From: Uranotaenia lowii
Lineage: Eukaryota; Arthropoda; Insecta; Diptera; Culicidae
Assembly: GCF_029784155.1 (NCBI RefSeq)
Contig: NC_073693.1
Coordinates: forward strand, 20,930,002 to 20,994,001
Length of the DNA: 64,000 nucleotides
Direction: 5' to 3'
The notes below the pieces were generated by a model, which had not been told where the DNA came from, did no database searches, and saw only the letters and a program-made list of their open reading frames with translations. Made by a program: the position numbers and the translations under genes. The stretch's first letter is position 1; each line of letters begins with the position of its first letter. Shown here piece by piece: positions 1,976 through 61,930 of the stretch.

Positions 1976-2335
1976 CATTTTTGAGTCACTTTTGTGTCAT
2001 TTTTTTGTCATTTTTTTGTCATTTTTGTGTCATTTTTGTGTCATTTTTGTGTCATTTTTGTGTCATTTTTGTGTCATTTTTGTGTCATTTTTGTGTCATT
2101 TTTGTGTCATTTTTGTGTCATTTTTGTGTCATTTTTGTGTCATTTTTGTGTCATTTTCGTGTCATTTTTGTGTCATTTTTGTGTCATTTCTTGTCATTTT
2201 TTTGTCATTTTTGTGTCATTTTTGTGACATTTTTGTGTCATTTTTGTGTCATTTTTGTGTCATATTTGTGTCATTTTTGTGTCATTTTCGTGTCATTTCT
2301 GTCATTTTTGTGTCATTTCTGTCATTTTAGTGTCA
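1976..2335 (+). repeat. Array 1, 11-bp unit GTGTCATTTTT
   Basis: About 30 tandem copies of an 11-bp unit, GTGTCATTTTT, with occasional single-base changes and shortened units (9 or 10 bp) near 2190-2215 and 2297-2330. The T5 tract recurs every 11 bp, close to one helical turn. Open frames spanning it (for example 1939-2922) are artefacts of the repeat. Confidence 0.95.
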
Positions 2336-2908
2336 TTTTTGTCATTTTTGTCATTTTTGTCATTTTTGTCATTTTTGTCATTTTTGTCATTTTTGTCATT
2401 TTTGTCATTTTTGTCATTTTTGTCATTTTTGTCATTTTTGTCATTTTTGTCATTTTTGTCATTTTTGTCATTTTTGTCATTTTTGTCATTTTTGTCATTT
2501 TTGTCATTTTTGTCATTTTTGTCATTTTTGTCATTTTTGTCATTTTTGTCATTTTTGTCATTTTTGTCATTTTTGTCATTTTTGTCATTTTTGTCATTTT
2601 TGTCATTTTTGTCATTTTTGTCATTTTTGTCATTTTTGTCATTTTTGTCATTTTTGTCATTTTTGTCATTTTTGTCATTTTTGTCATTTTTGTCATTTTT
2701 GTCATTTTTGTCATTTTTGTCATTTTTGCCATTTTTGTCATTTTTGTCATTTTTGTCATTTTTGTCATTTTTGTCATTTTTGTCATTTTTGCCATTTTTG
2801 TCATTTTTGTCATTTTTGTCATTTTTGTCATTTTTGTCATTTTTGTCATTTTTGTCATTTTTGTCATTTTTGTCATTTTTGTCATTTTTGTCATTTTTGT
2901 CATTTGTG
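2336..2908 (+). repeat. Array 1, 9-bp unit GTCATTTTT
   Basis: About 60 nearly identical 9-bp units, with only two GCCATTTTT variants (near 2727 and 2790). The change from the 11-bp to the 9-bp unit occurs near 2336 by loss of the GT dinucleotide. The near-perfect identity suggests recent expansion or homogenisation. Confidence 0.97.
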
Positions 2909-3345
2909 TTATTTTTGTTTAATTTTTGTTTAATTTTTGTGTTATTCTTGTGTCATTGTCGTGTTATTTTTCTGTAATTTTTGTGTCATTTTTGTCATTT
3001 TTTTCATGTTTGTCATTTTTGTCATTTTTGTCATTTTTGTCATTTTTGTCATTTTTGTCATTTTTGTCATTTTTGTCATTTTTGTCATTTTTGTCATTTT
3101 TGTCATTTTTGTCATTTTTGTCATTTTTGTCATTTTTGTCATTTTTGTCATTTTTGTCATTTTTGTCATTTTTGTCATTTTTGTCATTTTTGTCATTTTT
3201 GTCATTTGTGTTATTTTTGTTTAATTTTTGTTTAATTTTTGTGTTATTCTTGTGTCATTGTCGTGTTATTTTTCTGTAATTTTTGTGTCATTTTTGTGTC
3301 ATTTTTGTCATTTTTTTCATGTTTGTCAGTTTTGTCATTTTTGTT
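2901..3345 (+). repeat. Array 1, duplicated junction block (about 302 bp)
   Basis: An irregular block beginning CATTTGTGTTATTTTTG and ending near a TTTTTTCATGTTTGTCA phrase occurs at about 2901-3018 and again at about 3203-3330. The two are separated by roughly 22 perfect 9-bp units. The offset is close to 302 bp. The second copy has one extra GTGTCATTTTT unit and ends in unique sequence at about 3345. Confidence 0.9.
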
Positions 3346-4270
3346 ATTTTTGCTGCGAGCCTTTCGGGAAATTAGAGTCTTTTTATAACCCTGTTTTTTC
3401 CCAAACAATCTCAAAAATGGAGAACTAAAACAAGCAGGAAGCATCGTTGTAGCTGGCCTGCAGTAATGGCACATTACCAACTATGTCGTGGAGCCAAAAC
3501 ATCAGGGTTATTGGATCATCCGGCCAAGAAATTCAGGTTTGGCCAGTTCCGATTTAGCCGCACCGCTACAAACACCCGCTCGATAAACATATAAATTAGA
3601 TCGTGTGTTGTGTTTAGAAGGCAGCAACCTCTCAAATGGATGATTGCTAGGAATTTTGTGCTCAAGTTTCGCGGGACCGATTCTGGAAGATTGCCGGGCG
3701 GAAGAAATGTCTTCGCTATAGGTTGATTAGAGCGACGGGGGGTTAACGACGGTGAATTATTATTATTATTACCCACTATCATAGTGTCAATATAAACCAG
3801 TAAACTGACAGCAAAAGTGGCACATCCACTAAGCTTAGCCACCGCCGAAGACCAACCGGTCTTAAATACTTTTATAGTCCGCCACTTTTCGCGAGATTGC
3901 TCGCGCAGATTGAGAAAGTTTGTCTCCATCCCATGACCAATCGAATCATATGCGAGTATGCACGTTTTCCTGCAGTCGCGGGGATTCGATTTGCATTTTA
4001 TATGACAATTCGAATCGGGGGGTCCCATATGTGAGTAATGATTCCGATAAATGGTGCTTACTGATGGTGGATTGGTTTCGCCCATTTGTTCAATTTCTCT
4101 TGAGTTGAGGTCATCAAATTTATGATTAGCAATAAAAGTGTTGGAAAAGTTTAATTGATTTAATTAAAGCCAAAAGAGTACGATGAAAAATTTCTACTTT
4201 TGTTTAAGGTTTTAGTGCTCAATATTTGAACAAGCATTTGAATACTCGAATCTATAGAAAATCGTATAAA
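3346..4270. other. Unique DNA with short (TTA)n tract
   Basis: No gene is recognised. A five-copy TTA/ATT microsatellite lies at about 3755-3771. The minus-strand open frame at 3516-4085 (189 codons) has no recognisable domain and an ordinary composition, so I do not call it a gene. Confidence 0.5.
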
Positions 4271-4302: not shown

Positions 4303-4339
4303 TTGACCCTTCCCCAAAAGTTATGTTACGGTAAGCAAT

Positions 4340-7900: not shown

Positions 7901-8270
7901 AGTGTAAGTAGTGGTCAGTGGTCGTAGTGGTCATATCACCTCTTGTCTGCAACTCCGATTCTCTACCTCCCCGTGGTGCTAGCTGGGGTGCGAGCAACCT
8001 TAGCGGAGATCGGGTACCCAACCCCGGTGGATGCTTTAGTCGCATGCAGACTGAGTTAGGGGGCTTCGTACGCGTCTGTTCTCCATGTCAGGGGCGGCGT
8101 GCGGAGTGCAACAGCGTCCTGGTGGTGTTCGGGACCCAAAACAGCAACATAACGACGGTCCTCCTGCGAGATAGTGGGGTTAGCTGCGGGCCTTGCGAGC
8201 CTGTGACTACAAAAAAACATAAGCAACGAGCAACGAACAACAAATTTCGGATGGAAATCGGCAAAGACCC
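7901..8270 (+). other. 5' region of LINE copy 1
   Basis: A GC-richer leader upstream of the endonuclease. An open frame at 7918-8328 (136 codons) overlaps the endonuclease in another frame. It has a CxxC-like cluster near its middle but no recognised domain. LINE copy 2 lacks the first roughly 120 bases of this segment through 5' truncation. Confidence 0.6.
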
Positions 8271-9310
8271 ACGCGACGAAAAGGGACTAGCGATTGGAAA
8301 CTTGGAACATGGAACTGCCGATCTCTAAATTTTGTGGGCAGTACCCACGTGCTCTCCAACGAATTGAAGAGCCGCAAATTCGACATCGTAGCGCTGCAGG
8401 AGGTATGCTGGAAGGGCTCCACGGTACGAACGTACCCAGATGGTCGTGCCATCTACCAGAGCTGCGGCAACACACACGAGCTTGGAACAGCTTTTATAGT
8501 GATGGAAAAGATGCAAAAGCGCGTGATCGGGTGGTGGCCGATCAACTCACGAATGTGCCGGTAAAGAATCAAGGGCCGGTTCTTCAACATCAGCATCATC
8601 AACGTGCACAGCCCTCACCTCGGAAGTACCGGTGGAGACAAAGACGAATTTTACGCGCAGCTGGAGCGTGAATACGACCGTTGCCCAAAACATGATATCA
8701 AGATCGTTATCGGGGATTTCAAAGCTCAGGTCGGCCAGGAGGAGGAATTCAAACCGACAATTGGAAGGTTCAGTGCTCCGGTAGTAGTAGGTTCAAAACT
8801 CTCCGTAGTAAACAACACGCGAAACTGGCGCCCGCCTCGGTTAAATATCGCGCGACTGAAGCAACCTGAGGTCGCGGCAGACTACGCGCAATCGGTCGAA
8901 GCAGAGCTGCCGGCAGAGGGCGAGCTTGACGAAGCCCCTCTCGAGGACTGTTGGGATACCATCAAAACAGCCATCAACAGTGCTGCGGAGAACGTCATCG
9001 GTTATGTGGAGCGAACTCGACGGAACGACTGGTTCGACGAGGAGTGTAGGAGGGTGATGGACGAAGAGAATGCCGCGCGGGCGGCAGTGGTGCAAAGAGG
9101 CACCCGTCGAAATGTGGAAAATCACCGACAGCGGAAGAGGCAGCGAGTCCGAATTTTCCAGGAGAAAAAGCGCCGCCTGGAGGAGGAGGAGCTCGAGGAG
9201 CTGGAGCAGCTGCATCGTTCCCAAGAAACACGAAAGTTCTATCAGAAACTCAACGCATCCCGCAAAGGCTTCGTGCCGCAAGCCGAAATGTGCCGGGATA
9301 AGGACGGGGG
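8271..9310 (+). pseudogene. LINE endonuclease domain, copy 1 (broken)
   Basis: AP-like endonuclease of a LINE, which nicks target DNA to prime reverse transcription. Visible motifs: KLGTWNCRSL at about 8298, FDIVALQEV at about 8376, and GDFKAQVG at about 8715. In copy 2 the last motif is GDFNAQVG, so the likely catalytic Asn is Lys here. A TAA stop at 8562-8564 replaces a TTG codon of copy 2; the frame then reopens. Between FSA (about 8778) and LSVVNN (about 8799) some 84 residues present in copy 2, including the DHVL and SDHYLV motifs, are missing. About 16 bases of unrelated filler sit in their place. The rest, rich in Glu and Arg, runs to the MITE at 9313. Confidence 0.88.
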
Positions 9311-9312
9311 TA

Positions 9313-9551
9313 CACAGTAAACGAAAATTACCGAGTTCGGTAATTTTTTTACCGAAATCCTAACATGTGTAAGTCGTTAAACTGTTCGGTATTTTTTTCG
9401 GTAAAAATTAAACGAACATCGGTAAATGAGGAATCGATTTACCGATGTTCGTTTATTTTTTACCGAAAAAATTACCGAACAGTTTAACGATTTACACATG
9501 TTAGGATTTCGGTAAAAAAATTACCGAATTCGGTAATTTTCGTTTACTGTG
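9313..9551. mobile_element. 239-bp hairpin MITE inside LINE copy 1
   Basis: Almost perfect palindrome with arms of about 110 bp and a loop of about 10 bp near 9429. The ends are CACAGTAAACG and CGTTTACTGTG. TA dinucleotides at 9311-9312 and 9552-9553 are the target duplication. LINE copy 2 has the uninterrupted site (GGGGGTATCCTGACGG, minus strand near 44070), which proves the insertion. The arms are packed with the word TTACCGA and its complement. A TA duplication and CAC-type ends suggest a Tc1/mariner-driven element. Confidence 0.93.
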
Positions 9552-9553
9552 TA

Positions 9554-11214
9554 TCCTGACGGACTATCGTGAGGTGATGAAAAGGTGGAAGCAGCACTTC
9601 GATGAACACCTGAACGGCGCACATGCAGGAGATCAAGACGGTGGGGGAAGGTACATCGCCGGCGTAGCCAACGACGAAGAGGAGCCACTCCCAACGATGA
9701 GTGAAGTTAAGGAAGCGATTCGCCAGCTGAATAGAAACAAGTCGGCTGGGAAGGATGGCATCGCAGCTGAACTCATCAAAATGGGCCCGGACAGGTTGGC
9801 CGATTGCCTACACCGGTTGATAATCCGGATCTGGGACATAGAACAGCTACCGGAGGAGTGGAAAGAGGGGGTAATATGCCCCATCTACAAGAAGGGCGAC
9901 AAATTGGACTGTGAGAACTACCGAGCGATCACTGTCCTCAACGCCGCCTACAAAGTGTTGTCCCGAATCTTACTCCGCCGCCTAACGCCACAAGCAAACA
10001 GATTCGTGGGAAGTCATCAGGCCGGCTTTATGGAGGGACGGTCTACGACGGACCAGATATTCACATTACGGCAAATCCTCCAAAAATGCCGAGAACACCA
10101 AGTCCCTACGCACCATCTATTCATCGACTTCAAAGCCGCATACGACACGATCGACCGTAACGAGCTATGGAAAATCATGGACGAGAACGGCTTTTCCGGG
10201 AAGCTGATCAGACTGATTAAGGCGACGATGGATGGAACGCAGTGCTGTGTGCGGACTTCGGGTGAATTGTCAAGTTCATTCGAATCGCGCAGGGGGCTTC
10301 GACAAGGTGATGGTCTATCCTGCATGATGTTCAACGTGGCGCTAGAAGGTGTTATTCGACGAGCGGTGGGCGAAATGCGGGGCACGATTTTCAACAGATC
10401 CAGTCAACTTATCTGCTTTGCCGATGACATTGATATAGTCGGCAGATCATCTGCGGCGGTGGAAGACATCTACCGCAAACTGAAACGCGAAGCAGGAAGG
10501 ATTGGGTTGATGATTAATACGTCCAAGACGAAGTACATGCTGGCGTGCGGATCCGAGGCCGACCGAACCCGCTTGTCCAGTAATAACAAGGTCACGATCG
10601 ACGGCGACGAGCTGGAGATAGTCGAAGACTTTGTCTATCTCGGCTCCCTGGTGACCGCAGACAATGACATCAGCCGTGAGATTTGGAGGCGAATTATCAG
10701 CGGAAGTCGTGCCTACTATGGACTCCACAAGCAACTGCGGTCGAGAAGACTTAGCCCTCGCACGAAGTGTAACCTGTATATGACGCTCATTAGACCGGTT
10801 GTTCTCTACGGGCACGGGACATGGATATTGCTCGAGGAGGACCTGCGTACACTCGGAGTATTCGAGCGACGAGTGTTAAGAACCATCTTTGGCGGCGTAC
10901 AGGAGAACGGAATGTGGAGGCGAAGGATGAACCATGAGCTCACGCGACTCTACGGCGAACCCAGTATCTAGAAGGTGGTGAAGGCTGGCCGGATACGCTG
11001 GGCGGGAAATGTTGCGAGAATGCCGGACGACTGTCCTGCAAAACAGGTGTTCGCTACGAATCCGGTAGGAACAAAACGAGCGGGGGCGCAACGAGCGAGG
11101 TGGTTAGACCAAGTGGAGCGTGATCTGGCGAACGTGGGGTGCCCGAGAAATTGGAGAACGGTTGCTATGAACCGAGTGAATTTTAGGAATTATGTTCGTC
11201 AAGTTATGTCGTAA
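9554..11214 (+). pseudogene. LINE reverse transcriptase, copy 1 (broken)
   Basis: Reverse transcriptase of the RTE-like LINE. An uninterrupted frame of 465 codons (9574-10971) carries KSAGKDGI (about residue 53), FIDFKAAYDTIDR (about 185), RRGLRQGDGLSC (about 240) and FADDID (about 282). A TAG at 10969-10971 replaces CAG of copy 2. The same frame then continues (KAGRIRWAG...) to the true stop at 11212-11214. The C-terminal part contains RIRWAGNVARM and RARWLDQVERD, usual for this LINE type. There is no RNase H. One nonsense mutation is the main RT defect, but the joint to the endonuclease is lost at the MITE. Confidence 0.92.
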
Positions 11215-11244
11215 GACGGAATACTATGTAAATAAAAAATAAAT

Positions 11245-11257
11245 ACTTAACAGATTT
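11245..11257. repeat. LINE target site duplication, right
   Basis: Second copy of ACTTAACAGATTT, directly after the LINE A/T tail. Confidence 0.9.
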
Positions 11258-13060: not shown

Positions 13061-13074
13061 CAATGAAGTTTTGA

Positions 13075-18377: not shown

Positions 18378-18381
18378 TTAA

Positions 18382-37980: not shown

Positions 37981-37984
37981 GAGT

Positions 37985-42570: not shown

Positions 42571-42603
42571 TTATTTTTTATTTTATTTACATAGTATTCC
42601 GTC

Positions 42604-44090: not shown

Positions 44091-45749
44091 TTTGGTCTGT
44101 ATATTTCAGTTGTTTCTGAGATATACACACTTTTGTACAATCTGAATAAGTTGTATAGAATATTCTATATGAGCCTGTACGTACCAAAGTGGAGGCAATA
44201 TACGGACCAAATTTTGCTCACCTTGAAAATATAAAACTTTGTATTGTGTTTTCAACAATTTGATAGCAACTTTGCTTTGCATAAAATCTTAGGATTGTAC
44301 AACTTACAACTTTCTATTGCCTGCCCTACAATTTGATTACAATTTCTTTTGCAGGTAGCCTGAGGTTTGTACAACTTTCTTCGCCATTTAATACAATTTA
44401 TTGTTACTGTATCCCAAAGCAATTATATTGTTCCTTTATTACGATTTTACTATGAATCGCCGTGAACATTAATACAATAGAATTTAATGTTTCCTGCGAA
44501 AAAAAATTGAACCATATACAACTTTATGTGTCTCTTTATCCTCAGTCTCGAACTCACAACGTTCCGATCCCTGTCCTTCGATACTTCCTCTGCGCCATTT
44601 CATGTTGATACTAACAAGCAAATTTGTTCATGTACAGTTGAGAGTTCCGTTTAAAAATCAGTTGATCGTATAAAATACCACTGACTGCATCATATCGGAC
44701 TCCAAAACTATTTATAGACGCCGTTTTTTGAAATACAACTTTAACCTATCTCATAGACAATTCGATTACAATCAATAATTGTATTCAGCGCTGTGCGATC
44801 TTAGCTAGCTATTTACTGTACTGTTAAACAATTCGACAATCTGCAGATTGTTCAAATTCCATTATACGATGTTCTTACAATTACTGTACGACCTTTCATG
44901 GAAATAATATGTCATCATAGATCGCAAGCATGAAATATTGCTTAATTGTACAGTGGGACTAAACAACTTTAGTGATCTTTCTATACGGTTAACAAAATAT
45001 TATCGTATATATTGAACTATACAAACCATAAATTATAAAATATAACTTGGTTAAGCTACAACATTATGTTTATACAATTCCAATCAAAACTGGATGCTTA
45101 TACAATCTACAATGAACAATGCTTTACGATTTCTGGTTATCTGAAATCATTTATCACCGAACCGGATTTTTTTAAGCGTCGCCTGTGTTTTTGCAAACGC
45201 CGACTGTATGTGCCATTTTTTTTTTTCATTTTTATAATTTTTTTCTAAATTAAAACTGCCTTCATTTTTGCAACAAAATTCGTCCAGAATTTCGAAATTT
45301 TGCAATTGTTAACATAAGATGATTACGATATCACTAAGCATAGGAATTGCATTATTGACAATTATTTACCGATTAAGTTTTTCTCAATAAGTAACTTTGA
45401 ATGACATGTATAAATAGATTGTTTAAATTCCATTGTACAATTTTCTCACAATTACTGTACGACCTTTCATGGAAATAATATGTCATCTTAGATCGCAAGC
45501 ATGAAAGATTGCTTAATTGTACAGTGGGATTAAATATTGAGCTTTACACAATTCTACTGCCATTCAAAACAACTTTATTGATCTTTCTATACGATTAACA
45601 AAATTTTATCGTTTGCAATGAATTATACAAACCATAAATGATAAAATACAACTTGGTTTAGCTACAACATGATGTTTATACAATTCCAATCAAAACTGGA
45701 TGCTTATACAATCTACAATGAACACTGCTTTACGATTTCTGGTTATCTG
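44091..45749. mobile_element. 1.66-kb insertion in LINE copy 2, unclassified
   Basis: AT-rich sequence between the GTGAACAT and GTCCTTATC parts of the LINE. It carries a long direct repeat: about 44866-45147 and about 45434-45749, both ending TACGATTTCTGGTTATCTG. The second repeat ends exactly at the LINE junction. The words TACAATTT and TTGTACA recur throughout. No transposase, TIR or duplication is clear. A Helitron-like, satellite-carrying or composite element are all possible. Confidence 0.65.
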
Positions 45750-47010
45750 GGTCCTTATCCCGGCACATTTCGGCTTGCGGCACGAAGCCTTTGCGGGATG
45801 CGTTGAGTTTCTGATAGAACTTTCGTGTTTCTTGGGAACGATGCAGCTGCTCCAGCTCCTGGAGCTCCTCCTCCTCCAGGCGGCGCTTTTTCTCCTGGAA
45901 AAGTCGGACTCGCTGCCTCTTCCGCTGTCGGTGATTTTCCACATTTCGACGGGTGCCTCTTTGCACTACTGCCGCCCGCGCGGCATTTTCTTCGTCCATC
46001 ACCCTCCTACACTCATCGTCGAACCAGTCGTTCCGTCGAGATCGCTCCACATAACCGATGACGTTCTCCGCCGCACTGTTGATGGCTGTTTTGATGGTAT
46101 CCCAACAGTCCTCGAGAGGGGCTTCGTCAAGCTCGCCCTCTGCCGGCAGCGCTGCTTCGACCGATTGCGCGTAGTCTGCCGCGACCTCAGGTTGCTTCAG
46201 TCGCGCGATGTTTAACCGAGGCGGGCGCCGGTTTCTCTTGTTGTTCACTACGGAGAGTTTTGGGCGCATCTTCACCATCACCAGATAATGGTCCGACTCG
46301 ATGTTGGCGCCCCGACAGGATCTGACGTCGATGATGTCCGAAAAGTGCCGGCTGTCGATCAAAACGTGGTCGATCTGTGATTGCGTTTGGTATGGTGATC
46401 TCCAGGTGTACTTGTGTGGGAGGCGGTGCTGAAAAAAGGTACTACGTACGGCCATTCGTTTGGAGGCGGCGAAATCAATAAGTCTGAGGCCGTTTTCGTT
46501 GGTCAGCTGGTGCGCGCTGAACCTTCCAATTGTCGGTTTAAATTCCTCCTCCTGGCCGACCTGAGCATTGAAATCCCCGATGACGATCTTGATATCATGT
46601 TTTGGGCAACGGTCGTATTCACGCTCCAGCTGCGCGTAGAATTCGTCTTTGTCGTCACCGGTACTTCCGAGGTGAGGGCTGTGCACGTTGATGATGCTGA
46701 TGTTGAAGAACCGGCCCTTGATTCTCAACCGGCACATTCGTGAGTTGATCGGCCACCACCCGATCACGCGCTTTTGCATCTTTCCCATCACTATAAAAGC
46801 TGTTCCAAGCTCGTGTGTGTTGCCGCAGCTCTGGTAGATGGCACGACCATCTGGATACGTTCGCACCGTGGAGCCCTTCCAGCATACCTCCTGCAGCGCT
46901 ACGATGTCGAATTTGCGGCTCTTCAATTCGTTGGAGAGCACGTGGGTACTGCCCACAAAATTTAGAGATCGGCAGTTCCATGTTCCAAGTTTCCAATCGC
47001 TAGTCCCTTT
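45750..47010 (-). pseudogene. LINE endonuclease domain, copy 2 (near intact, cut off)
   Basis: On the minus strand the frame runs without a stop from DWKLGTWNCRSL (46998) through FDIVALQEV, GDFNAQVG (about 46570), SQIDHVLIDSRHF and ESDHYLV (about 46290) into an Arg/Glu-rich linker. It then runs into the 1.66-kb insertion, where it stops at 45730. All the visible AP-endonuclease motifs are kept, including the Asn that is Lys in copy 1. It cannot reach the RT, so the protein would be endonuclease only. Confidence 0.9.
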
Positions 47011-47274
47011 TCGTCGCGTGGGTCTTTGCCGATTTCCATCCGAAATTTGTTGTTCGTTATTCGTTGCTTATGTTTTTTTAGTAGTCACAGGCTCGCAAGG
47101 CCCGCAGCTAACCCCACTATCTCGCAGGAGGACCGTCGTGATGTTGCTGTTTTGGGTCCCGAACACCACCAGGACGTTGTTGCACTCCGCACGCCGCCCC
47201 TAACATGGAGAACAGACGCGTACGAAGCCCCCTAACTCATTCTGCATGCGACCAAAGCATCCACCGGGGTTGGG

Positions 47275-47304
47275 TGAAAAAAAAAAAAAAAAAAAAAAAA
47301 ATTA
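47275..47304. repeat. LINE copy 2 target duplication (5' side) with A25 run
   Basis: TG, 25 A, TTA, directly next to the truncated 5' end of the LINE. It pairs with TGA9TTA at 42557-42570. The longer A run may reflect slippage after insertion. Confidence 0.55.
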
Positions 47305-48000
47305 AGCTTCTTAAATCTGTGGATTTTTATGTGTCATTTTTCAGTCATTTTTGTGTAATTCTTGTATCATTTTTGTGTCATTTTAAAGTGTCATTTGTGT
47401 CTTTTTTATGTCATTTTTGTGCCCTTTTTGTGTATTTTTGTGTCATGTTTATACCATTTTAGTTTATTTTTGTGCTTTTTGGAATTTTTGTACCATTTTT
47501 GTTTTATTTTTGTGTCATTTTTGTGTTTTTTTGTGTCATTATAGTAACATTTTTGTGTAATTTGGTGTTTTTTGCCATGTGTCATTTTTGTTCATTTTTT
47601 TTCATGTTTGTGTCATATTTGAATTTTTAAAATTCCGTATTTATACGATATTTAAGCCATTGCCATTGCCGTTTAAGCGCCATTTTTATGCCACTTTTAT
47701 GGCTTTTTAAGTCATTTTTGTGTCTTTTGGAGTTAGTTTGTGTAATTTTGTTGTCATTTTTTATCATGTTTATGACATTTTTTAACTTTTTTGACATTTT
47801 TGAATAATTTTTTAGTTTTTTTTTGTGTTATTTTCGTGTCATTTTTGTGCCAATTTTATGCCAGTTTTGTTTTGATTTTTGTGTCATTTTGGTCATTTTT
47901 TGTGCCTTTTTTGTTTTTGTGTGCCTTTTTATATTTTTGTGCCATTTTTGAGGAGTTTTGGGCAGTTTCTGTCATTTTTTAAAAGTTTTGGCATTTTTTG
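47305..48000 (+). repeat. Array 3, decayed left flank (11-bp type)
   Basis: Irregular TTTTTGTGTCATTTTTGTG-like units with many substitutions and gaps. The unit is closest to the 11-bp GTGTCATTTTT form. It grades into the regular core at about 48001. Confidence 0.8.
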
Positions 48001-50110
48001 ATATTTTTGTCATTTTTGTCATTTTTGTCATTTTTGTCATTTTTGTCATTTTTGTCATTTTTGTCATTTTTGTCATTTTTGTCATTTTTGTCATTTTTGT
48101 CATTTTTGTAAGATTTTTCATTTTTGTAATTTTAGTCAATTTTTGTCATTTTTGTCATTTTTGTCATTTTTGTCATTTTTGTCATTTTTGTCATTTTTGT
48201 CATTTTTGTCATTTTTGTCAGAAAAATGACAAACATTTTTCTCTTTTTTTTTGTCATTTTTGTCATTTTTGTCATTTTTGTCATTTTTGTCATTTTTATC
48301 ATTTTTGTCATTTTTGTCATTTTTGTCATTTTTGTCATTTTTGTCATTTTTGTCATTTTTGTCATTTTTGTCATTTTTGTAAGATTTTTCATTTTTGTAA
48401 TTTTAGTCAATTTTTGTCATTTTTGTCATTTTTGTCATTTTTGTCATTTTTGTCATTTTTGTCATTTTTGTCATTTTTGTCATTTTTGTAATTTTTGTAA
48501 TTTTTGTCATTTTTGTCATTTTTGTCATTTTTGTCATTTTTGTCATTTTTGTCATTTTTGTCATTTTTATCATTTTTGTCATTTTTGTCATTTTTGTCAT
48601 TTTTGTCATTTTTGTCATTTTTGTCATTTTTGTCATTTTTGTCATTTTTGTCATTTTTGTCATTTTTGTCATTTTTGTCATTTTTGTCATTTTTGTCATT
48701 TTTGTCATTTTTGTCATTTTTGTCATTTTTGTCATTTTTGTCATTTTTGTCATTTTTGTCATTTTTGTCATTTTTGTCATTTTTGTCATTTTTGTCATTT
48801 TTGTCATTTTTGTCATTTTTGTCATTTTTGTCATTTTTGTCATTTTTGTCATTTTTGTCATTTTTGTCATTTTTGTCATTTTTGTCATTTTTGTCATTTT
48901 TGTCATTTTTGTCATTTTTGTCATTTTTGTCATTTTTGTCATTTTTGTCATTTTTGTCATTTTTGTCATTTTTGTCATTTTTGTCATTTTTGTCATTTTT
49001 GTCATTTTTGTCATTTTTGTCATTTTTGTCATTTTTGTCATTTTTGTCATTTTTGTCATTTTTGTCATTTTTGTCATTTTTGTCATTTTTGTCATTTTTG
49101 TCATTTTTGTCATTTTTGTCATTTTTGTCATTTTTGTCATTTTTGTCATTTTTGTCATTTTCGTCATTTTTGTCATTTTTGTCGTTTTTGTCATTTTTGT
49201 CATTTTTGTCTTTTTTGTCATTTTTGTCATTCTTGTCATTTTTGTCATTTTTGTCATTTTTGTAATTTTTGTAATGTTTGTTATTTTTGTCATTTTTGTC
49301 ATTTTTGTAATTTTTGTCATTTTTGTAATTTTTGTCATTTTTGTAATTTTGTAATTTTTGTAATTTTTGTAATTTTTGTAATTTTTGTAATTTTTGTAAT
49401 TTTTGTAATTTTTGTATTTTTTGTAATTTTTGTCATTTTGTCATTTTTGTCATTTTTGTCATTTTTGTCATTTTTGTCATTTTTGTCATTTTTGTCATTT
49501 TTAACATTTTTGTCATTTTTTTCATTTTTAACATTTTTGTCATTTTTGTCATTTTTATCCTTTATGTCATTTTTGTCAATTTTGTCATTTTTGTCATTTT
49601 TGTCATTTTTGTCATTTTTGTCATTTTTGTCATTTTTGTAATTTTTGTAATTTTTGTAATTTTTGTAATTTTTGTAATTTTTGTAATTTTTGTAATTTTT
49701 GTAATTTTTGTTATTTTTGTAATTTTTGTAATTTTTGTAATTTTTGTAATTTTTGTAATTTTTGTAATTTTTGTAATTTTTGTAATTTTTGTAATTTTTG
49801 TAATTTTTGTAATTTTTGTAATTTTTGTTATTTTTGTCATTTTTGTCATTTTTGTCATTTTGTCATTTTTGTCATTTTTGTCATTTTTAACATTTTTGTC
49901 ATTTTTTTCATTTTTAACATTTTTGTCATTTTTGTCATTTTTGTCATTTTTGTCATTTTTGTCATTTTTGTCATTTTTGTCATTTTTGTCATTTTTGTCA
50001 TTTTTGTCATTTTTGTCATTTTTGTCATTTTTGTCATTTTTGTCATTTTTGTCATTTTTATCATTTTTGTCATTTTTGTTATTTTTGTCATTTTTGTTAT
50101 TTTTGTCAAT
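48001..50110 (+). repeat. Array 3 core, 9-bp unit GTCATTTTT
   Basis: Some 230 units. Long perfect runs (about 48500-49150) alternate with variant patches of GTAATTTTT (about 49340-49430 and 49632-49830). Irregular blocks are duplicated: one with AAGATTTTTCATTTTTG at 48111 and 48381, offset 270 bp or 30 units, and one with TTAACATTTTTGTCATTTTT at 49501 and 49887, offset 386 bp. A short inverted segment lies at about 48220-48240. Long frames such as 48226-49641 are artefacts. Confidence 0.97.
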
Positions 50111-50895
50111 TTTTGCTGTTTTTTCCTTTTTTTCATGTTCATCATTTTTGTTATTTTCGTGTCAATTTGGGTGTCATTCATGTGTCATTTACATATTTGT
50201 GTAATTTATGTCATTTTTGTCTTCTTTATCATTTTTTGTCATTTTTGTTATTTTTGATTGATTTTTGTGACAGTTTTGCGTTTTTTTTGTGTCATGTCTG
50301 TGTCATTTCTGTGTTATTTTTTATCATTTTGAGTCATTTTTTGTCATTTTTTGTCATTTTTATCTCATTTTTGTGTCTTTTTTTGTCATTTTGATGTCAT
50401 TTTTGTTTGATTTTTCAATTTTGTGTCATTTGCTTGTCATTTTTGTGTCATTTTCTTGTCATTTTTGTGTCAATTGCATGTCATTTTTGTTTCAATTTAA
50501 TGTTATCATTGGCCATTTTTGTCTCCTTTTTGTTTATTTTTGTGCCATTTTTGTGTCATTTTTGATTGATTTTCATTCCATTTCTGGGTTATTATCTTGT
50601 CATGTTTGTGACATTTCTGTGTAATTTTTTGTCATTTCTTGTGTCATCTATGGGTCATTTTTATGTCATTTTTGTGTCATTTTGGCGTCAAATTTATGTC
50701 ATTTTGATGTCATTTTTGTGCCATTTTTGTTTCATTTTTGCGTCAGTAAGTTTTTGTCATTATTTTTTGTGCCATATTTGCGTTATTTTTGTCGGTGTTA
50801 TTTTTGTGTCAATTTTGTGTCAATTTTTTGTTTGTATTGTGTCATTTTTTGTCATTTCTGTGTTATTTTTGTGTCATTTTTGTTTTATTTTTCAA
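50111..50895 (+). repeat. Array 3, decayed right flank
   Basis: The regular 9-bp core breaks down into imperfect 11-13-bp units (TTTTTGTGTCATTTT-like) with increasing mutation. It stops near 50895 in unique DNA. Confidence 0.8.
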
Positions 50896-52705: not shown

Positions 52706-53405
52706 GTCAAAATTGTCAAAATTGTCAAAATTGTCAAAATTGTCAAAATTGTCAAAATTGTCAAAATTGTCAAAATTGTCAAAATTGTCAAAATTGTCAA
52801 AATTGTCAAAATTGTCAAAATTGTCAAAATTGTCAAAATTGTCAAAATTGTCAAAATTGTCAAAATTGTCAAAATTGTCAAAATTGTCAAAATTGTCAAA
52901 ATTGTCAAAATTGTCAAAATTGTCAAAATTGTCAAAATTGTCAAAATTGTCAAAATTGTCAAAATTGTCAAAATTGTCAAAATTGTCAAAATTGTCAAAA
53001 TTGTCAAAATTGTCAAAATTGTCAAAATTGTCAAAATTGTCAAAATTGTCAAAATTGTCAAAATTGTCAAAATTGTCAAAATTGTCAAAATTGTCAAAAT
53101 TGTCAAAATTGTCAAAATTGTCAAAATTGTCAAAATTGTCAAAATTGTCAAAATTGTCAAAATTGTCAAAATTGTCAAAATTGTCAAAATTGTCAAAATT
53201 GTCAAAATTTTCAAAATTTTCAAAATTGTCAAAATTGTCAAAATTGTCAAAATTGTCAAAATTGTCCAAATTGTCCAAATTGTCAAAATAATCGAAATTG
53301 TCAAAATTGTCAAAAATTTCAAAATTGTCAAAATTATCAAAATTGTCAAAATTGTCAAAATTGTCAAAATTGTCATCATTGCCCAAATTGTAAAAATTTG
53401 TAAAA
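52706..53405. repeat. Array 4, 9-bp unit GTCAAAATT (family B, inverted)
   Basis: About 75 units, essentially perfect from 52706 to about 53205, then with variants TTCAAAATT and GTCCAAATT. It is the reverse complement of the array 2 unit. Frames 52587-53291 and its complements are artefacts. Confidence 0.97.
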
Positions 53406-56400
53406 ATTTTTAAACTGTGACCCAAATATGGGTCTTGACTCAAACATTTTTTTTTTCGCATGTTTTTCAACATCAATTTTCCCTTATCTAGTCCCTGAAA
53501 TTTCATCTAAGTTGGATTCATTTCTCTACAAAAAAAAAAAAAAATTTGTAAAAATTTCCAAAATTTTTAAAATGCTCGAAATTCTTCAAGTTATTTTTAT
53601 TGTTATGAATCTGTAATTTTTTAGTTATTTTTTATATTTTTTTGTCTTATTTGTAATTTTTTCAATTATTCTCATTTTTTTTCTCGTCATTTCTTGAAGT
53701 TTTTTTTTCCTTTTTTTCCGAATTTTTTGTCAGTTTTGTTATGTTTTGTCGTTTTCTGTCATTTTTCGTCATTTCTGTCATTTTTTTATTTTTTTTTTCA
53801 TTTTTTTTTAATTTTTTGTCATTTTTTTTAATTTTCTGTAATTTTTTGTTTTTGATCGTAATCTTTTTTCAGTTCTATGTCCTTTTTTGTTTTTTTTATT
53901 TTTTTTAATTTGTCATTTTTTTCAGATTTCTTTAGTTTTAAGTTTTTTTTTGCCACTTTTAGCGTTTTCTGTCACTGAAATATTTTTTTATTTTTTTTTA
54001 TTTGTAATTTTTGTTTTTATTTTTGTTATTTTGTGTTATTTTATGTAACTTTTAGTCATTTTCAGTCGTTTTAAATTTTTTTTTGTTATTGTCTGTCTTT
54101 TTTTTAAATTTTACTGTTGGTTATTTATTGTATGAATTCATTTGTCAATTTTTGTCTTTCTTATTTTTGTTATTTTCTATCCTTTTTTTTCATTTTATGT
54201 CTTTTATTATAATTTTTTGTCAGTTTGCATCGTTTTCTGTCTTTTTTGTCATGCTTATTATTTGTATCATTGATTACAAGTTTTTGTTATATTTTTATTT
54301 TTTGTCAATTTTTGTTATTTATATTTTTTTGGAAATTTTTGTAATCTTTTTATTTTATGTTATTTCAGTTATTTTATGTTTCAGTTTTAATCATGTTTAT
54401 GTCATCTTTTGTTATATATTGATTTAATTTTTTGGCAATTCTTGTCTCTTCTTTTGTTGTTATTTGTCATTTTCTGTCATTTTTTAATTTTTGTGTTTTT
54501 TTGTCAGTTTTTGTAGTTTTTTTTTGTATGCTTTTGAAATTTTTTGTCATATTTTGTCATTTTTTCAGTTATCTGTTAGTTTTTGTAGTAAGTAGTGTTG
54601 TTAGTTTTTGTCTGTTTCTGGCATTTCTTTTAATCACTTTTCGCTTTTTCTGTCGTTATTTCTCGTTTTTGTCACTTTTGAATTTTTTTTGTAATTTTTT
54701 GTAATCTTTGGATTTTTTTTGTCTTTTACTTTGTTTTTGAATATTTTTTGTCATTTTTGTAATTTTTTGTAGTTTTCGTCATATTTTGTCACGACACAAT
54801 TTTTTGTCATTTTTTTCAATTTTCTGTTATTTTTTGGCTCTTTTTTGTTACTTTTTCACGTTTCATGTTATTTTCTGTTATTTTCGGTTAATTCTGTAAT
54901 TTTTTATCAATAGTTATAATTTAAAAAAAAGTTTATCGTTTTTTGTCAATTTTTGTCATTTTCTGTAATTTTTTATTATTTTTGTCAGTTTTCTTACTTT
55001 TATTTTACTTTTTTGTCACTTTTAAATGTTACTATCATTTTTTGTGACTTTCGGTAAATTTTTGTCATTTTCTGTGAATTTTTTGTTTTTTTTTAAGTTT
55101 TGTCATTTTAGTCATTTTTGTAATGATAAAATTTCCGTGTCATTTGGGTCATTTTTTGTCATTTTTGTCTTGTTTTGTGTTCTCGTATCACTTTTTGTCA
55201 TTTTATGTTAATTTTTTGTTATTTTTTCTTTTTTTATATTTTCCTAGTAGTTTGGACTTTTTTTCGCGTTTTTGTCGTTTTCTGTCGTATTTGTCATTTT
55301 TTATGAATTTTAGACATATTTTGTAATTTTTTCTCAGTTTTTGTCATTTGTTTTAATGACAAAATTTTTGTCTGATTTTTGGTCATTTATTCAGGTTGTT
55401 GTTATTTTTGTCTTTTATATCATTTTTGGTTTCTTTCATCACTTTCCGCGTTTTCTTTTTTTTTGCATTTTTGTCAATTTTTGTCTTTTTCGTCATTTTT
55501 TTAAGTTTTCTGTTATTTTATGTTACTTTTTGTCTTTTATTCTATATTTTTGTCAATTTTCGTCTTTTTATAAAATTTTTGTTTATTTTTTACATTGTTT
55601 GTCGTTTGTTTGTAATTTTTTATATTTTGGGGTTTTCGTTAAATTATGTCATTACACAATTTTTGGGTTCTTTTTTTTCAATTTTCTGTCATTTTTTTGT
55701 CACTTTTTCGCGTTTTCTGTCATGTTCTGTAACTTTTTGTTATTTTCTGTTATTTTTTATCATTTCTGTAATTTTTTGTAGTTTTTAAACATTTTTTGTC
55801 GTTTTTTGTTAATTTTTGTCATATTCCGTAATTTTTTGTCATTTATTGTAATATTTTGAAATTTTTTATCACTTTCATATCATTTTTTTGTATATTTTCT
55901 TAATGACAAAATTTATTTGTTCTTTTTTTCAGTGTTCTGTCTCTTTTTTTCTTTTTTCAATTTTTTCGCGTTTTCTGTCATTTTTTGTCATCTTTTGTCG
56001 TTTTTTTAATTTTTTTTTATAATTTTTTAGTCTTTTGGTGAATTATTGGCATATTTTGGAATTTTTTGTAATTTCTTGTGATTTTTTGTCATTTTTTCAG
56101 CTTTTGTCATTTTCAGTAGATTTTATCATGACAAGGTTTCTGTGTCAATTTTGGTCATTTTTTGTCATTTTGTGTCACTTTTTGTCAACTTATGTCGTTA
56201 TCTTCCATTCATTGATATTTTCTGTTTTTTGTTTTTTTTTTTTTTTTTTGAAAACTTTATATCATTTTTTGTCTTTTTTTCGTTTTAACCTTTAAAGTCT
56301 TTTTATTGTCCCTTTCTGTAATTTTTTTGTTTTTTGTTTTTGTAATTTTTTTGTCATTTTTTGTTATTTATATTAGTTGTAATTTTTTCACATTTTTTGT

Positions 56401-57000
56401 CATTTTCGTAATTGTTTGTCAATGTTTGTCATGACATAATTATTGTGTAATTTTCAGTGTCCTCCTATGTCATTTTTTAACTTTGTTCAGTTTTCTGTTT
56501 TATGTAATGGTTGTTTTTTTTTGTAATTTTTCATTTACTTTTTGCAGGTTTCTGAAGTTTTGTCTCTTTTAGCGTTTTTTGCCATTTTCAGTCATTTTTC
56601 GTCATCTTTCTCAGTTTTTCAGTCATTTATTCATATATTTTTAGATTTTTTTTTTATATTTTTTTGTCTTTTTGTGTATTTTTTCATCATTTTTTTGTCA
56701 TCTTCTGTCGTTTTCTCTAATTTTTGCCTTTTTTGTCTTGTAATTTATTGAAGGTAATTTTTTGTGTTTTTTTTTAAATTTCTTGTCCTTTTTTGCCATA
56801 TTTGATTTTTTTTTTTTGTCCTTTTTTGTCATTTTTGTCAGTTTTTTTGTAATTTTTTGTCGTTTTCTGTCATTTTTTTGTATTTTTTTTCATGAAATTC
56901 TTTGTTATGTTTGGCCTTTTTTGTCATTTTTGTTATTTTTGATCATTTTTATCGTGTTTGTCATTTTCTTTAATTGTTTGTCATTTTTGTCATTAATTAA
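53406..57000 (+). repeat. Array 5, strongly decayed TGTCA/T-rich array
   Basis: About 3.6 kb of T-rich sequence with GTCATTTTTT-like words at irregular 10-15-bp spacing. Many units have become GTAATTTT, GTTATTTT or GTCGTTTT. It is clearly derived from family A, but no phase is kept. Short frames rich in Phe, Leu and Ser are by-products. Confidence 0.85.
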
Positions 57001-58429
57001 CTCAATACCTCAAGAAGTTTTAGAGTTGTAATTTTGAATTTAATTGCACTTAGACTTTTGTATCGAAAGCTTCGTTAATATTCCACAATTGAAACGTTAA
57101 ACCTCGAGCTAACAGTCTCTCCAGTGTTTTTTTTATTTAAAATAAGAGTTATTTCCGTTAGATCATGTTATTTTTCCAGGAAAAATGAGCCTAAAATTTG
57201 AATATTTAAGTTTTGCAATAACTTATCCGGTACGATTTTTTTTGTTTCCTGAATCAAATTGATTAAAATGTAAACAATAAACAAGTCGAATGCATTAATC
57301 CAACCGGCAAACCAAACAGCATCCAGCGACTGATGAATGCAATCAAGTTCACCATTAGAAAAGGTCAATCATCTCCCTCAGGGCGGGAAGTTTTTTTTTT
57401 TTGTTTTGCAGCAGCCAGCCAACGATTTATTAAAAAGCCTAGCTACCGACTGAAGAGAATTACCAAATCGCCATGACTTATTGTTGTTGCATCTCCTATG
57501 TATTCAGACAATGGAAAACAATCGGTTGCAAAAATCCTTCTCTTCTGCAAATGCAGTCCAGAGGAAAAATTAATACCACTTAGTTAATGCGCCGGTCCAT
57601 TCGTGCAGACAGACAAATTTATCAGGAGGAAGAGGAAAAAAATCGTAACGACAAGAGAACCCTTCCATTCATGATAACAGCAACAAGATCAACATCAACA
57701 ACAAGAAAAAAAACTGTTCATGGGCGCGCGAGCACTTCGGAACATTAGTCAATGAACAATGTTGTTGATTCAGCAGAGGTCTCTTTTAGTGTAGTTTTTT
57801 TAGTCGTTCAACTGTTCCGTTTCATCTTTGGCCGTTTGGTTTGGCTGAAACTGCATCTCTTGAGATGAATTGTTGCATTTCACGGAACTGGTAGCATTGC
57901 AGTGATGAATAAAGGAAACACAACGACGAAGTCAGAGAAAGAAAGAAAGAAGATGTAAGAAAAACGCTTCCAACATTCCGCCATAACAAATCTTAAGCGT
58001 GTACAATAAGATTGCAATCTTGTGTGGCGATGATGATGGTTGGCTTTTTGGGGAGGAAAACAATCGAAGCCAAGTGAATGAACCTTTTAAGCCGGGGAGC
58101 GATCGCATTTTAAGAATAAATTTATTAGATAACATTAAATGGAAAACTCCGAATAACCCGGGTGGTTGCAAGGTCTCAAATAAATTTAAAAAAAATTGAA
58201 TGGGAAAAAGGCTCTTCGTATAGCTTGAAAGTTTAATTCAAAAATGAAAGTTCCAATTTAAGCATCAAAAGCTTTTGAAAGATCTTTATCACCCAAAATT
58301 TCATTAGAATGTACAGGAAAAACGACGAGATCCTCTTTAAAAAATACCACTGCTCAATGTCAAATGTCTAGAACAAACGAACGAAAGATTTACAAAATTT
58401 AAAAACTTAAAAAAGTTATGAAAATAAAA
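57001..58429. other. Unique island between two decayed arrays
   Basis: About 1.4 kb of ordinary sequence. A GGCGCGCGAGCACTTCGG phrase lies near 57723 and a (GAAA)-type run near 57936-57953. I see no gene with confidence. It separates array 5 from the oppositely oriented array 6. Confidence 0.45.
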
Positions 58430-61400
58430 CTGACAAAAAAGTTACACAAAATTTGACACAAAAATGATATAACAAATTGACACAAAAATTGAAATAAAAA
58501 TGACACAACAAATTTACACAAAAATTGACTTAAAAACTGACAAAAAATGACACAAAAATGACAAAAAAAAAATCACAAAACATACCAAAAAAGACACAAA
58601 AATATCACAAAACTTACACAAAAATGACACAAAATCGACACCAAAAAAAACAAAATCGGCATAATAATAGCAAAAATATGAACCAGAAATGACTCAAAAT
58701 GGCTAAAAAACGAAAAATAATGACACAAAAATAACACAAAATTGGACACAAAAATGACACAAAAAATCGACCCAAAAAATGGCAACAAAATGACTAAGAA
58801 AAATGACACAAAAATGACTCAAAAATTGACACGAAAGTAACAAAAAATGATACAAAAATTACACAAAACTTACACCAAAGCGACACAAAATTGGCAAAAA
58901 AATTGACAAAAAAAAATAAATAAATGACACAAAATTGGCAGAAAATATAGCACAAAAATTACCAAAAATTGACACAAAAATGACCAAAAAATGACACAAA
59001 ATAGCACAAAAATGGTAGAAATGACACAAAAATGCAAAATAAAAACACAGAAATTACACAACGTAATAAAAACAGAACAAAAATAACATAAAAATGGAAC
59101 AATAAAACAAAAATGACACCTAAATGACACAGAAATGGAACAAAAATGACACAACAATGGAATAAAAAGGACAAAAATGAAACAAATTTATTCAAATCCG
59201 ACACAAAAATGACACAATGACAAAAATGACAAATAGAAAACAAAAACGACACAAAAAAGGCACAAAATTGGTACAAAAATGACAAAAAAATGGCAAAAAA
59301 CTGTCACAAAGGTGGCATAATACTGGTAGCAACTTGACACAAAAATGGCAGAAAATGACACAAAAATTAAAAAATATAACACAACACTGGCACGAAAGTG
59401 GCAAAAAAATGTCATAGAAATGGCATAAAAATAGCACAAAAATCACACGAACTTGACAAAAATGACACAAAAATGGCGCTTAAATAAAACACAGGAAAAC
59501 ACAAAAATGACAAAAAAGACACAAAAATGCAAAAAAATAGCAAAAACATAACCTAAAATTTACACAAAAATGACCCAAAAATGGAACAAAAATAACACAA
59601 AAATGATACACAAAGGCATAAAAATAAAAATATAATAAAAATAACACAAAATAAACCAACAATGGCACAAAAAAGTCCCAAAAACAAAACAAAAATGATT
59701 CAAAAATGGCTTGAAATTGAAAACATTTACACAAAAATTACACAAAATGTGACACACAATTTGACACAAAATTAACACAGAAAATTCACCCAAAAATGAT
59801 GAAAAAAAAACCAAAACAAATTGACATAAAATTTGGCTCAAAAATTGACACAAAAATAACACAAAAATGACACAAAAACGACACAAAAATTACACAAAAA
59901 TGACACAAAAACGACACAAATATGGCACAAAAAAATTACATAAACACGACAAAAAAAAGACACAGAAATGATACAAAAATTTCACGGAAAGCCATAAAAA
60001 TGGCTTAATGAAGCATCAAAATGACACAAAATAAATTCCAAAATGATAAATATGGCACAAAAATAACATAAAAACGACACAAAAATTGGCACAAAAATGG
60101 CAAAATATGACACAAAATGACACAACATTGACACCACAATGACACAAATAATGTCATAAAAATGACAGAAAAATGAAATAAAAATGACACCACAACGACA
60201 AAAAAAAATGAAAAAAAATCACCAAAAATGACACAAATCATACAAAAGATGTCATAAAAATGACACAAAAATGGAACAAAAATAAATCAAAAATGGCATC
60301 AAAATGACACAAAACACCCCAAAAATGTACAAAAATGACACAAAAAAACAAAATAACACCTAAGTGACACAAAAATGACACATAAATGGCACAAAAATGA
60401 CAAAAATGACACAATATTGACACCAAAGTGACAACATGATGTCAAAAAAATGACATAAAGATGACACCAAAGTGACAAAAAAATGACCAGAAATGACAAA
60501 AAAGATGCCATAAAATTGACACAAAAATGAAACAAAAATTACACAAAAAATACTTATAAATGACAAAAGATTAACACAAAAACGACACAAAAAATTAAAC
60601 AAAATCGACACAAAATTTACACAAATATGACATCAAAATTAAACAAAAATACCACAAAAATAAAGCAAAAATAGCAAAATAAAACACAAAACCAAAACTA
60701 AAATTACACAAAAAATTGACACAAAAATTGCAAAAAATTGAAACAAAAATTATAAATTTAAAAAAAAATTGTCAAAAAAATCGACATAAAAATGAAATAA
60801 AAATAACACAAAAGTAACCCAATAACGACAACAAAATGATACAAAAATGAAACAAAATTGACAAAAAAATGACACAAAAACGACACAGAAAGGTACAAAA
60901 ATGGCAAAATAATGTTTTAAAAATGGCATAAAAATAGCACAAAAATGATTAAAAAGTGACACAAAAAGAACATAAAAACTACACAAAAATGACAAAATGC
61001 CAAGAAATGACACAAAAAATGACACAATAATGACACAATTATAATATAAAAATGGTAAAAAAGACACAAAAATAACAGAAAAATTACACCTAAATGACAC
61101 AAAAATTGGCACAAGACTGGAATAATAAAGAAACAAAAATGATACAAATCTGACACAAGAATGACAAAAAAGACCATTATGATACAAACTAACACAAAAA
61201 CGACCAAAAACGGCACAAAATTGGTACCAAAATGGCTCATAATTGACACAAAATTACACAAAAATTACTTAAAACTATCACAAAAATGACACAATTATTA
61301 CACAAAAGTGACAAAAAATTGATGATACCTGAAATAACACAAAAATAACACAAAAATGTTACAAAAATTACATAAAACGACACAAAAATTACACAACAAT

Positions 61401-61930
61401 GACATAAAATTGTTACAAAAATGGCAAAAATTCGGCACAAAAATGCAACAAAATTGATAAAAAAATGACACAATAATTACACAAAAACTACTCAAAAATT
61501 TCACAAAAATTACACAAAAGTTACACAAAATTGATTTAAAATGAACACAAAAAGTGACAAAAAATTATTCAAAAACGACATAAAAATGACTTAAAATAGA
61601 AAAAAGAATGACAAAAAAATTACACAGAAATGACCAAAAGTTTCACAAAAATGACAACAAAATAACACAAAAATGACATACAAATGACACAAAAATGGGT
61701 CAAAAACGACACAAAAATAATACAAAAATAACACAAGAATGACAAAAAAAAATCATAAAACGACACAAAAATGGCATAAAATGATAAATAATGACACAAA
61801 AATGCCACAAAATTTACATAAAAATGACAAAGTGACACAAAAATGACACACGAATGAAACCATAATGACTTAAAAAATACCTTAAAGTGACATAAAAATT
61901 ACACGAATATGACAAAAAATTGACTCAAAG
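58430..61930 (-). repeat. Array 6, decayed 11-bp array, opposite orientation
   Basis: About 3.5 kb built from TGACACAAAAA-like units, the reverse complement of the 11-bp GTGTCATTTTT unit of array 1. Spacing is mostly 11 bp with indels, and substitutions are scattered evenly. All open frames here (minus strand, rich in Phe, Val, Cys and His) are artefacts. Confidence 0.9.

Follow-up and report, generated by a model that had tools for sequence, protein, structure and literature searches.

Dispersed arrays of very short AT-rich satellite units in the genome of Uranotaenia lowii

Background

In the life-cycle and library models of satellite DNA, as presented in PMC10048060, old arrays decay, a diverged unit gives rise to a new homogeneous array, and array ends are homogenised less. 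The same review describes the dispersed satellites of Crassostrea gigas and the euchromatic satellites of Triatoma infestans, which lie outside classical heterochromatin blocks. The arrays of Uranotaenia lowii described here are likewise dispersed, and share features with the life-cycle and library models; they differ in that single arrays, only a few kb long, show several stages. The C. gigas satellites are linked to Helitron-type elements, whereas no carrier was seen at the U. lowii flanks tested. The U. lowii family resembles simple satellites and minisatellites in its short AT-rich units, its long homogeneous arrays, its single-step variants and its high copy number, and differs from them in being dispersed along all three chromosomes in separate arrays, and in comprising several co-existing one-step subfamilies.

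None of the literature matches listed deals with repeats of U. lowii, and a term search in PMC12699852 gave no match. Among the matches listed, Uranotaenia and satellite DNA co-occur only in a barcoding paper.

Results

Six arrays were delimited by Tandem Repeats Finder (TRF), the source of array calls and match percentages, in the window, i.e. the whole 64-kb stretch of DNA analyzed. They total 15,200 bp (23.75%), which bears out the initial annotation, where six arrays had been said to fill about a quarter of the stretch. Arrays 1 to 4 are head-to-tail rows of near-identical units (89-96% matches), as satellites and minisatellites are. Array 1 (2002-3352, + strand; family A, 9 bp, 91% matches) consists of 11-bp units (TTTTTGTGTCA) at ~2017-2330, pure 9-bp units (TTTTTGTCA) at 2331-2905, and a mixed remainder holding a segment duplicated at a shift of 302 bp. 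Array 2 (26792-29593 by TRF, 26792-29610 as annotated here, - strand; family B, 9 bp, 95% matches) is made up by units reading ATTTTGACA on the + strand and TTGTCAAAA on the - strand, includes internal blocks of the variant ATTTTTACA (28000-28061 and 28663-28751), and has a segment duplicated at shifts of ~663-690 bp. Array 3 (47326-50892, + strand; family A) has a 9-bp core (TRF row 47986-50468, 89% matches), with sub-blocks of TTTTTGTAA at 49347-49416 and 49632-49828, and degenerate 11-bp-type edges (47326-47970 and 50151-50892); segments are duplicated at shifts of 271 and 386 bp. A small inverted patch lies near 48220. Array 4 (52706-53408, + strand; family B, TTGTCAAAA, 9 bp, 96% matches) is nearly pure, and opposite in orientation to array 2. 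Both array 5 (53722-56994, + strand; 58% matches, spacing of ~10 bp) and array 6 (58426-61929, - strand; 11-bp type, TTTTTGTGTCA on the - strand, 63-65% matches) are degenerate members of family A. Long open frames result from 9-bp units that lack stop codons; the array translations gave weak protein matches only, none to a named known protein. An Rfam search gave no match at gathering scores.

Exact triple units (27-mers) were counted on both strands of the U. lowii assembly GCF_029784155.1. Family A (TTTTTGTCA) amounts to 2,099,898 and family B (ATTTTGACA) to 526,758 exact 27-mers, the strands being balanced for both; the reversed controls of the two 27-mers have zero copies genome-wide. Together, the 2,626,656 triples cover ~23.6 Mb, and this single, high-copy short-unit family alone makes up at least ~2.2% of the genome, U. 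lowii being the one mosquito searched for it. The window contains 195 A and 225 B exact triples, ~5.9% of its bases vs. 2.2% of the genome, and is thus dense but not exceptional: the unusual density read from it earlier holds as density, not as an exception. The case named at that time as contrary, units occurring only here, did not arise, exact 27-mers being found genome-wide.

Among 80 random points of 600 bp, drawn from the three large contigs only, six fell inside arrays (95% interval 2.8–15.6%), and all three contigs were hit (C1 at 12.0, 111.8 and 198.9 Mb; C2 at 406.0 Mb; C3 at 40.1 and 67.4 Mb). In five of the six, TRF called an array across all 600 bp; L064, the sixth, was judged by eye. 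Measured in bases, arrays make up 7.5% of the random points but only ~2.4% once eleven fixed 10-kb pieces are added, in which TRF detected ~255 bases of the family (at L015), almost none; the array fraction of the genome is uncertain, roughly 2–8%. Contig C2009 had been a mitochondrial candidate, but its first 10 kb are not mitochondrial. The arrays seen vary in length from 0.7 to at least ~8–11 kb, and one C2 region features B-type, A-type and ATTTTGTCA units inside ~8 kb. Since A and B units reside on all three chromosomes and on both strands, the window captures a dense portion of a family spread through the genome. The local process invoked in the initial annotation to seed the arrays was not borne out, the counts and the random sampling ruling it out. 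Nor do the positions of the arrays hit by the random points fit a telomeric or centromeric repeat, which would be confined to chromosome ends or to one block per chromosome.

The arrays are best explained as one dispersed simple-satellite family with 9-bp units [A/T]TTTTG[T/A][C/A]A, accompanied by a mostly decayed 11-bp relative, TTTTTGTGTCA. Judged by the sequences of the two units alone, the relation between families A and B is weak. TTGTCA, thought to be common to both, is indeed shared in a register matching at 6/9 residues, but the best register pairs opposite strands, A (TTTTTGTCA) matching the reverse complement of B (ATTTTGACA) at 7/9. As many as 1,011 of 20,000 shuffled units reach 7/9, so that the relation rests on intermediates. 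Both single-step intermediates between A and B are abundant, ATTTTGTCA being found as 234,447 and TTTTTGACA as 61,700 exact triples genome-wide; the variant TTTTTGTAA accounts for 152,333, the 11-mer TTTTTGTGTCA for 6,322. The three counted one-step variants of A that keep or raise the AT content thus span 61,700-234,447 exact triples, whereas the one GC-raising neighbour counted, TTTTTGTCG, has 443, fewer by a factor of 139 to 529. Its rarity indicates, from one control neighbour only, that the choice of expanding variants is not explained by unbiased copying. Diverged units were amplified as homogeneous sub-arrays, as the life-cycle model has it, in blocks of TTTTTGTAA, ATTTTTACA, ATTTTGTCA and ATTTTGTAA. 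At L144, degenerate TTACAAAAA (reverse complement TTTTTGTAA) gives way to pure ACAAAATTT (rotated reverse complement ATTTTGTAA), the two units differing by a single letter.

Neighbouring identical variant units were counted in ten usable segments and compared with shuffles (300 for array 2); segments w1 and L008 could not be used because of phase slips. Identical variants were adjacent above shuffles in six of the ten: array 2 (22 vs. a shuffled mean of 1.46, maximum 5), array 3 (25 vs. 5.76, maximum 13), L073 (11 vs. 3.72, maximum 9), L141 (3 vs. 0.13, maximum 2), L025 (4 vs. 0.29, maximum 2) and L145 (4 vs. 0.41, maximum 3). The other four did not exceed the shuffle maximum, w4 equalling it, and L095, L057 and L142 showing no excess. 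By an exact-word test, which is blind to old duplications, block duplications at shifts of ~270–690 bp were found in three of the four purer arrays (1, 2 and 3), and none in the pure array 4. TRF reports repeats of 69–98 bp inside arrays 5 and 6, hence duplication extends beyond the young arrays. Variant clusters and block duplications together support the repeated re-expansion that had been preferred over one founder array.

Ends are more diverged than cores at array 3, L008, L143, L144 and L145; the edge of L142 is abrupt, not decayed. In array 3 the ratio of GTGTCA to TTGTCA is 10:1 and 15:10 in the edges, and 0:168 in the core. The presence of a pure 9-bp core inside degenerate 11-bp-type edges agrees with the different ages assigned to the arrays at the outset, and likewise with re-expansion.

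On the sense strand TGTCA is far above composition shuffles in all six arrays (251 vs. 1.8 in array 2; 60 vs. 2.4 even in the degenerate array 5). In 617 in-phase units, pooled from the pure stretches of arrays 1–4, the most substituted letters are the G (24) and the C (27) of TGTCA, each remaining unit position having 4–10 substitutions. The excess is driven by arrays 2 and 3; array 1 has its highest number of substitutions (5) at the first T, and the C of TGTCA is never substituted in array 4. The statement that all arrays keep TGTCA is therefore correct as to frequency, and incorrect as to conservation; as a conserved motif TGTCA is ruled out, its G and C changing most often in the pooled pure stretches.

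Discussion

The arrays amount to a sizeable instance of an already known type of DNA, not to a new local mechanism. An ordinary satellite life cycle in a dispersed family, made up by decay, single-step variants and local re-amplification, is the probable explanation, and the units appear to have been re-expanded again and again. Old arrays would decay through point mutations, and a mutated unit would be copied onto its neighbours in short steps; an occasional variant may grow into a long pure block, helped by the duplication of segments hundreds of bp long, and such a block would decay in its turn. Replication slippage and unequal exchange are the likely copying mechanisms, and the spread to many loci presumably involved some form of unit dispersal, by way of extrachromosomal circles, through ectopic conversion, or as passive cargo of other DNA. 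The 11-bp form TTTTTGTGTCA is presumably older than the 9-bp units.

Each array might have been born independently by slippage from AT-rich DNA, the same units recurring through a preference of the mutation process. The flanks tested have no carrier in common, and several edges (L008, L143, L144) fade into AT-rich DNA, as such births would predict. Yet independent births should yield a wide spectrum of units, while a single exact 9-mer prevails among millions of units, no copy of its reversed control occurs, and the one-step neighbour TTTTTGTCG is rare; we consider this origin doubtful. Carriage by a transposable element, with tandem repeats within or at the end of the mobile element, is unlikely. 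TE-borne arrays are described in reviews (PMC10048060), a repeat family with inverted ends sits within the degenerate array at L015, a relative of it (~75% identical) lies near the L144 array, and a LINE copy ends ~50 bp from array 3. However, 20 near-identical members of the L015 family, taken from 39 other matches at 98–99%, were inspected at one end (90 bases each), and none adjoins an array there; at L015, array-like DNA in the same orientation lies on both sides (seen for ~90 bases on the right), as expected for insertion into an existing array; the inverted-end element was rejected as a carrier on the 0/20 count. So was the window LINE; neither the other LINE copy of the window nor the L019 copy has an adjoining array. 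Comparison of 19 one-sided array flanks, some overlapping, revealed no shared carrier, matches being limited to two window pairs that overlap and to a 32-bp stretch; dispersed repeats, of different kinds, occur in four of the 19.

A selected protein-binding role of TGTCA, e.g. at centromeres, in heterochromatin or in gene regulation, would turn the arrays into functional platforms. Both families, as written, contain the motif, and it stays frequent even in degenerate arrays; but its G and C are the letters most substituted in the pooled pure stretches, arrays of TTTTTGTAA and ATTTTGTAA, which lack TGTCA, were amplified too, and the arrays are dispersed rather than forming a single block per chromosome. 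This role is highly improbable, and TGTCA presumably has no sequence-specific function. That the arrays are collapsed or invented by the assembly is hardly credible. The random array L022 runs into 500 N in L141, hence the assembly lacks sequence at some arrays of this kind; but the arrays have individual structure, visible in their internal variant units, block duplications and graded edges, and comparable arrays turn up at separate random places. That U. lowii tends, throughout its genome, to amplify very short AT-rich units, the amplification choosing among variants, is also doubtful. Such a tendency would fit the scarcity of the one GC-raising neighbour counted, and the presence at distant loci of another short-unit family, unrelated and formed by the 13-bp unit AATCTGAATCTGA; if true, it would suggest a sequence bias in a process of replication or repair that affects the whole genome.

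With the satellite life cycle as the preferred explanation, one genome offers a natural series of arrays for following decay, copying in short steps and amplification of blocks, and one-letter intermediates are preserved. Should reads or relatives show length change, the arrays would be a good system for measuring the birth and spread of short satellites, and for learning whether some units are copied in preference to others.

Distribution in the genome

The six tandem arrays of the window were located with Tandem Repeats Finder (TRF) at 2002-3352, 26792-29593, 47326-50892, 52706-53408, 53722-56994 and 58426-61929 (arrays 1 to 6). Their summed length, 15,200 bp, is 23.75% of the 64 kb, so that the six arrays and the share of about one quarter reported in the initial annotation hold, on a scale beyond what that annotation could see. 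A search of Rfam gave no family at threshold.

Exact triples, that is, exact 27-mers made of three units of one 9-mer, were counted in 1,077,602,043 bases, three large contigs (C1, C2 and C3) measuring 216.2, 437.1 and 370.3 Mb, with the window at C3:20930002-20994001; the assembly of this culicine mosquito, Uranotaenia lowii GCF_029784155.1, is tabulated at 1077.64 Mb in a table of PMC10981705. Family A (TTTTTGTCA) totals 1,031,792 forward and 1,068,106 reverse triples, family B (ATTTTGACA, in the register of A) 267,781 forward and 258,977 reverse, and neither reversed control gives a single triple genome-wide. At nine bases per triple, A and B make up about 23.6 Mb, or 2.19% of the genome; for the family as a whole this is a minimum. 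Measured likewise, the window contains 195 triples of A and 225 of B, equal to about 5.9% of its sequence. The local process earlier proposed to seed and expand the units is unsupported, A and B units being spread genome-wide.

On the three large contigs, 80 random points of 600 bp were sampled, and 6 fell in family arrays (95% interval 2.8-15.6%), at C1 12.0, 111.8 and 198.9 Mb, C2 406.0 Mb, and C3 40.1 and 67.4 Mb. The array at C1 111.8 Mb is made of the variant ATTTTGTAA, and that at C1 198.9 Mb was judged degenerate by eye. Among 11 fixed 10-kb pieces only L015 carries a family array, degenerate and about 255 bp long by TRF. Random points and fixed pieces combined give an array share of about 2.4% by bases. 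Lengths were taken from eight edge pieces and from forty probes placed about the six randomly hit arrays. The L057 array, read throughout, spans about 2.9 kb, and those at L022, L025, L073 and L095 would extend over at least about 8 to 11 kb, provided that the sequence separating the probes is array as well. Two of the six, L057 and L095, have a further family array no more than 20 kb away.

Relationships among units

In the register of the initial annotation, A and B have TTGTCA in common, six letters of nine. With B on the opposite strand the alignment is closer (TTTTTGTCA vs. ATTTTGACA, 7/9). The 7/9 match is weak by itself, because shuffled units reach it in 1,011 of 20,000 trials; intermediates are the stronger evidence of relation. 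The intermediates ATTTTGTCA and TTTTTGACA form 234,447 and 61,700 exact triples genome-wide, the reversed control of the latter 242, and B-type, A-type and ATTTTGTCA units occur together within about 8 kb of C2 near 406.03 Mb. Also amplified are the one-step units TTTTTGTAA (152,333 exact triples) and, as local blocks, ATTTTGTAA and ATTTTTACA. The one GC-raising neighbour counted, TTTTTGTCG, is scarce (443 triples); its rarity suggests unequal expansion among variants, although a single control is too little to establish this. For the 11-mer the genome-wide count is 6,322.

Sense-strand TGTCA is far more frequent in all six arrays than in shuffles of the same composition, and the motif, said earlier to be kept by all units, might have been under selection. 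The substitution pattern in the pure stretches contradicts this. In 617 in-phase units from arrays 1-4, G was replaced 24 times and C 27 times, the other positions 4-10 times each; the counts are not independent, as variants are copied, and are driven by arrays 2 and 3. G and C of TGTCA are thus the most substituted residues and the motif bears no sign of special retention. Units lacking TGTCA, moreover, have been amplified as well.

Computed single-strand folds indicate that B units and ATTTTGTCA can self-pair, B units as hairpins, and that the T-rich strand of A cannot. Orientation flips within a B array were seen at L057, L145 and L146 (C3 40.11 Mb); as a guess from the folding model, the two may be related.

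Structure of the arrays

TRF matches are 89-96% in arrays 1-4, which include pure stretches, and 58-65% in the degenerate arrays 5 and 6. Array 3 has a rim of 11-bp type and a 9-bp core; in the core the GTGTCA:TTGTCA ratio is 0:168, in the two edges 10:1 and 15:10. A small inverted patch lies within this array near 48220. Array edges fade gradually at L008, L143, L144 and L145, and are abrupt at L142. The long, pure array of A units at L141 (C1 near 12.01 Mb) gives way to exactly 500 N, probably an assembly gap.

Adjacent identical variant units were compared with 300 shuffles of unit order in twelve segments, two of which (array 1 and L008) were unusable owing to phase slips. The shuffle maximum was surpassed in six of the ten others: array 2 (22 vs. 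a mean of 1.46 and a maximum of 5), array 3 (25 vs. 5.76 and 13), L073 (11 vs. 3.72 and 9), L141 (3 vs. 0.13 and 2), L025 (4 vs. 0.29 and 2) and L145 (4 vs. 0.41 and 3). The array 4 segment equalled its maximum, and L095, L142 and L057 had no excess over shuffles. Exact 30-base marker words in common revealed block duplications in array 1 (shift of 302 bp), array 2 (about 663-690 bp) and array 3 (271 and 386 bp), none being found by such words in arrays 4, 5 and 6. TRF reported internal repeats of 69-98 bp in arrays 5 and 6.

Origin and spread

The arrays are a known kind of DNA. A satellite life cycle is summarised in PMC10048060, according to which arrays decay, a diverged unit gives rise to a new homogeneous array, and array ends are less homogenised. 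The facts observed here fit this cycle. We infer that copying would proceed by slippage and unequal exchange, that the 11-bp form would be the older one, and that the family would have reached its many loci by some dispersal route.

Independent births of arrays would explain part of the data. They would account for unrelated flanks: in a comparison of 19 one-sided flanks, drawn from the window and elsewhere, the sole matches were one of 32 bp and those between overlapping windows, of which there were two pairs, and four flanks contain dispersed repeats of differing kinds. They cannot account for the dominance of one exact word among the units counted. Assembly artefact is unlikely, because the arrays are individually structured.

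Carriage by transposable elements has partial positional support and did not pass the tests applied to it, which were small. Two LINE copies of the window (8016-11245 and 42572-47275), in opposite orientation and about 97% identical where they match, both encode a reverse transcriptase domain, an endonuclease domain being found in the 42572-47275 copy. About 50 bp separate the end of one copy from array 3; no array borders the other. Within the degenerate array of L015 sits a high-copy repeat with inverted ends (1638-2134 and 9350-9846, 98% identical), which may resemble piggyBac elements. Array-like DNA of the same orientation borders it on both sides, the right one seen for about 90 bases only, and near the L144 array there is a relative with about 75% identity. 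The end of the L015 repeat is found in at least 40 places at 98-100% identity (40 scored of 2,399 first-look candidates); of the 39 besides L015, 20 were checked, and in no case do the 90 bases past that end show an adjoining array. The most likely reading of the L015 repeat is that it inserted into an existing array.

Other repeats

Another LINE is present in the window at 35708-38026. A reverse transcriptase of the window matches a Uranotaenia lowii relative with 92% identity across 64% of the query. A segment at 53449-53537, lying between arrays 4 and 5, is repeated in another genome piece (L072:93-185), where it follows a stretch resembling, by eye, the promoter box of a tRNA-derived SINE. 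A second short-unit family was met at L015:8060-8857 (C2 30.0 Mb), L116 (C1 111.78 Mb), L012:1600-2269 and L016:163-545: two distant loci have the 13-bp unit AATCTGAATCTGA in common, and similar words of TCTGAA type recur in 7-bp and 15-bp arrays.
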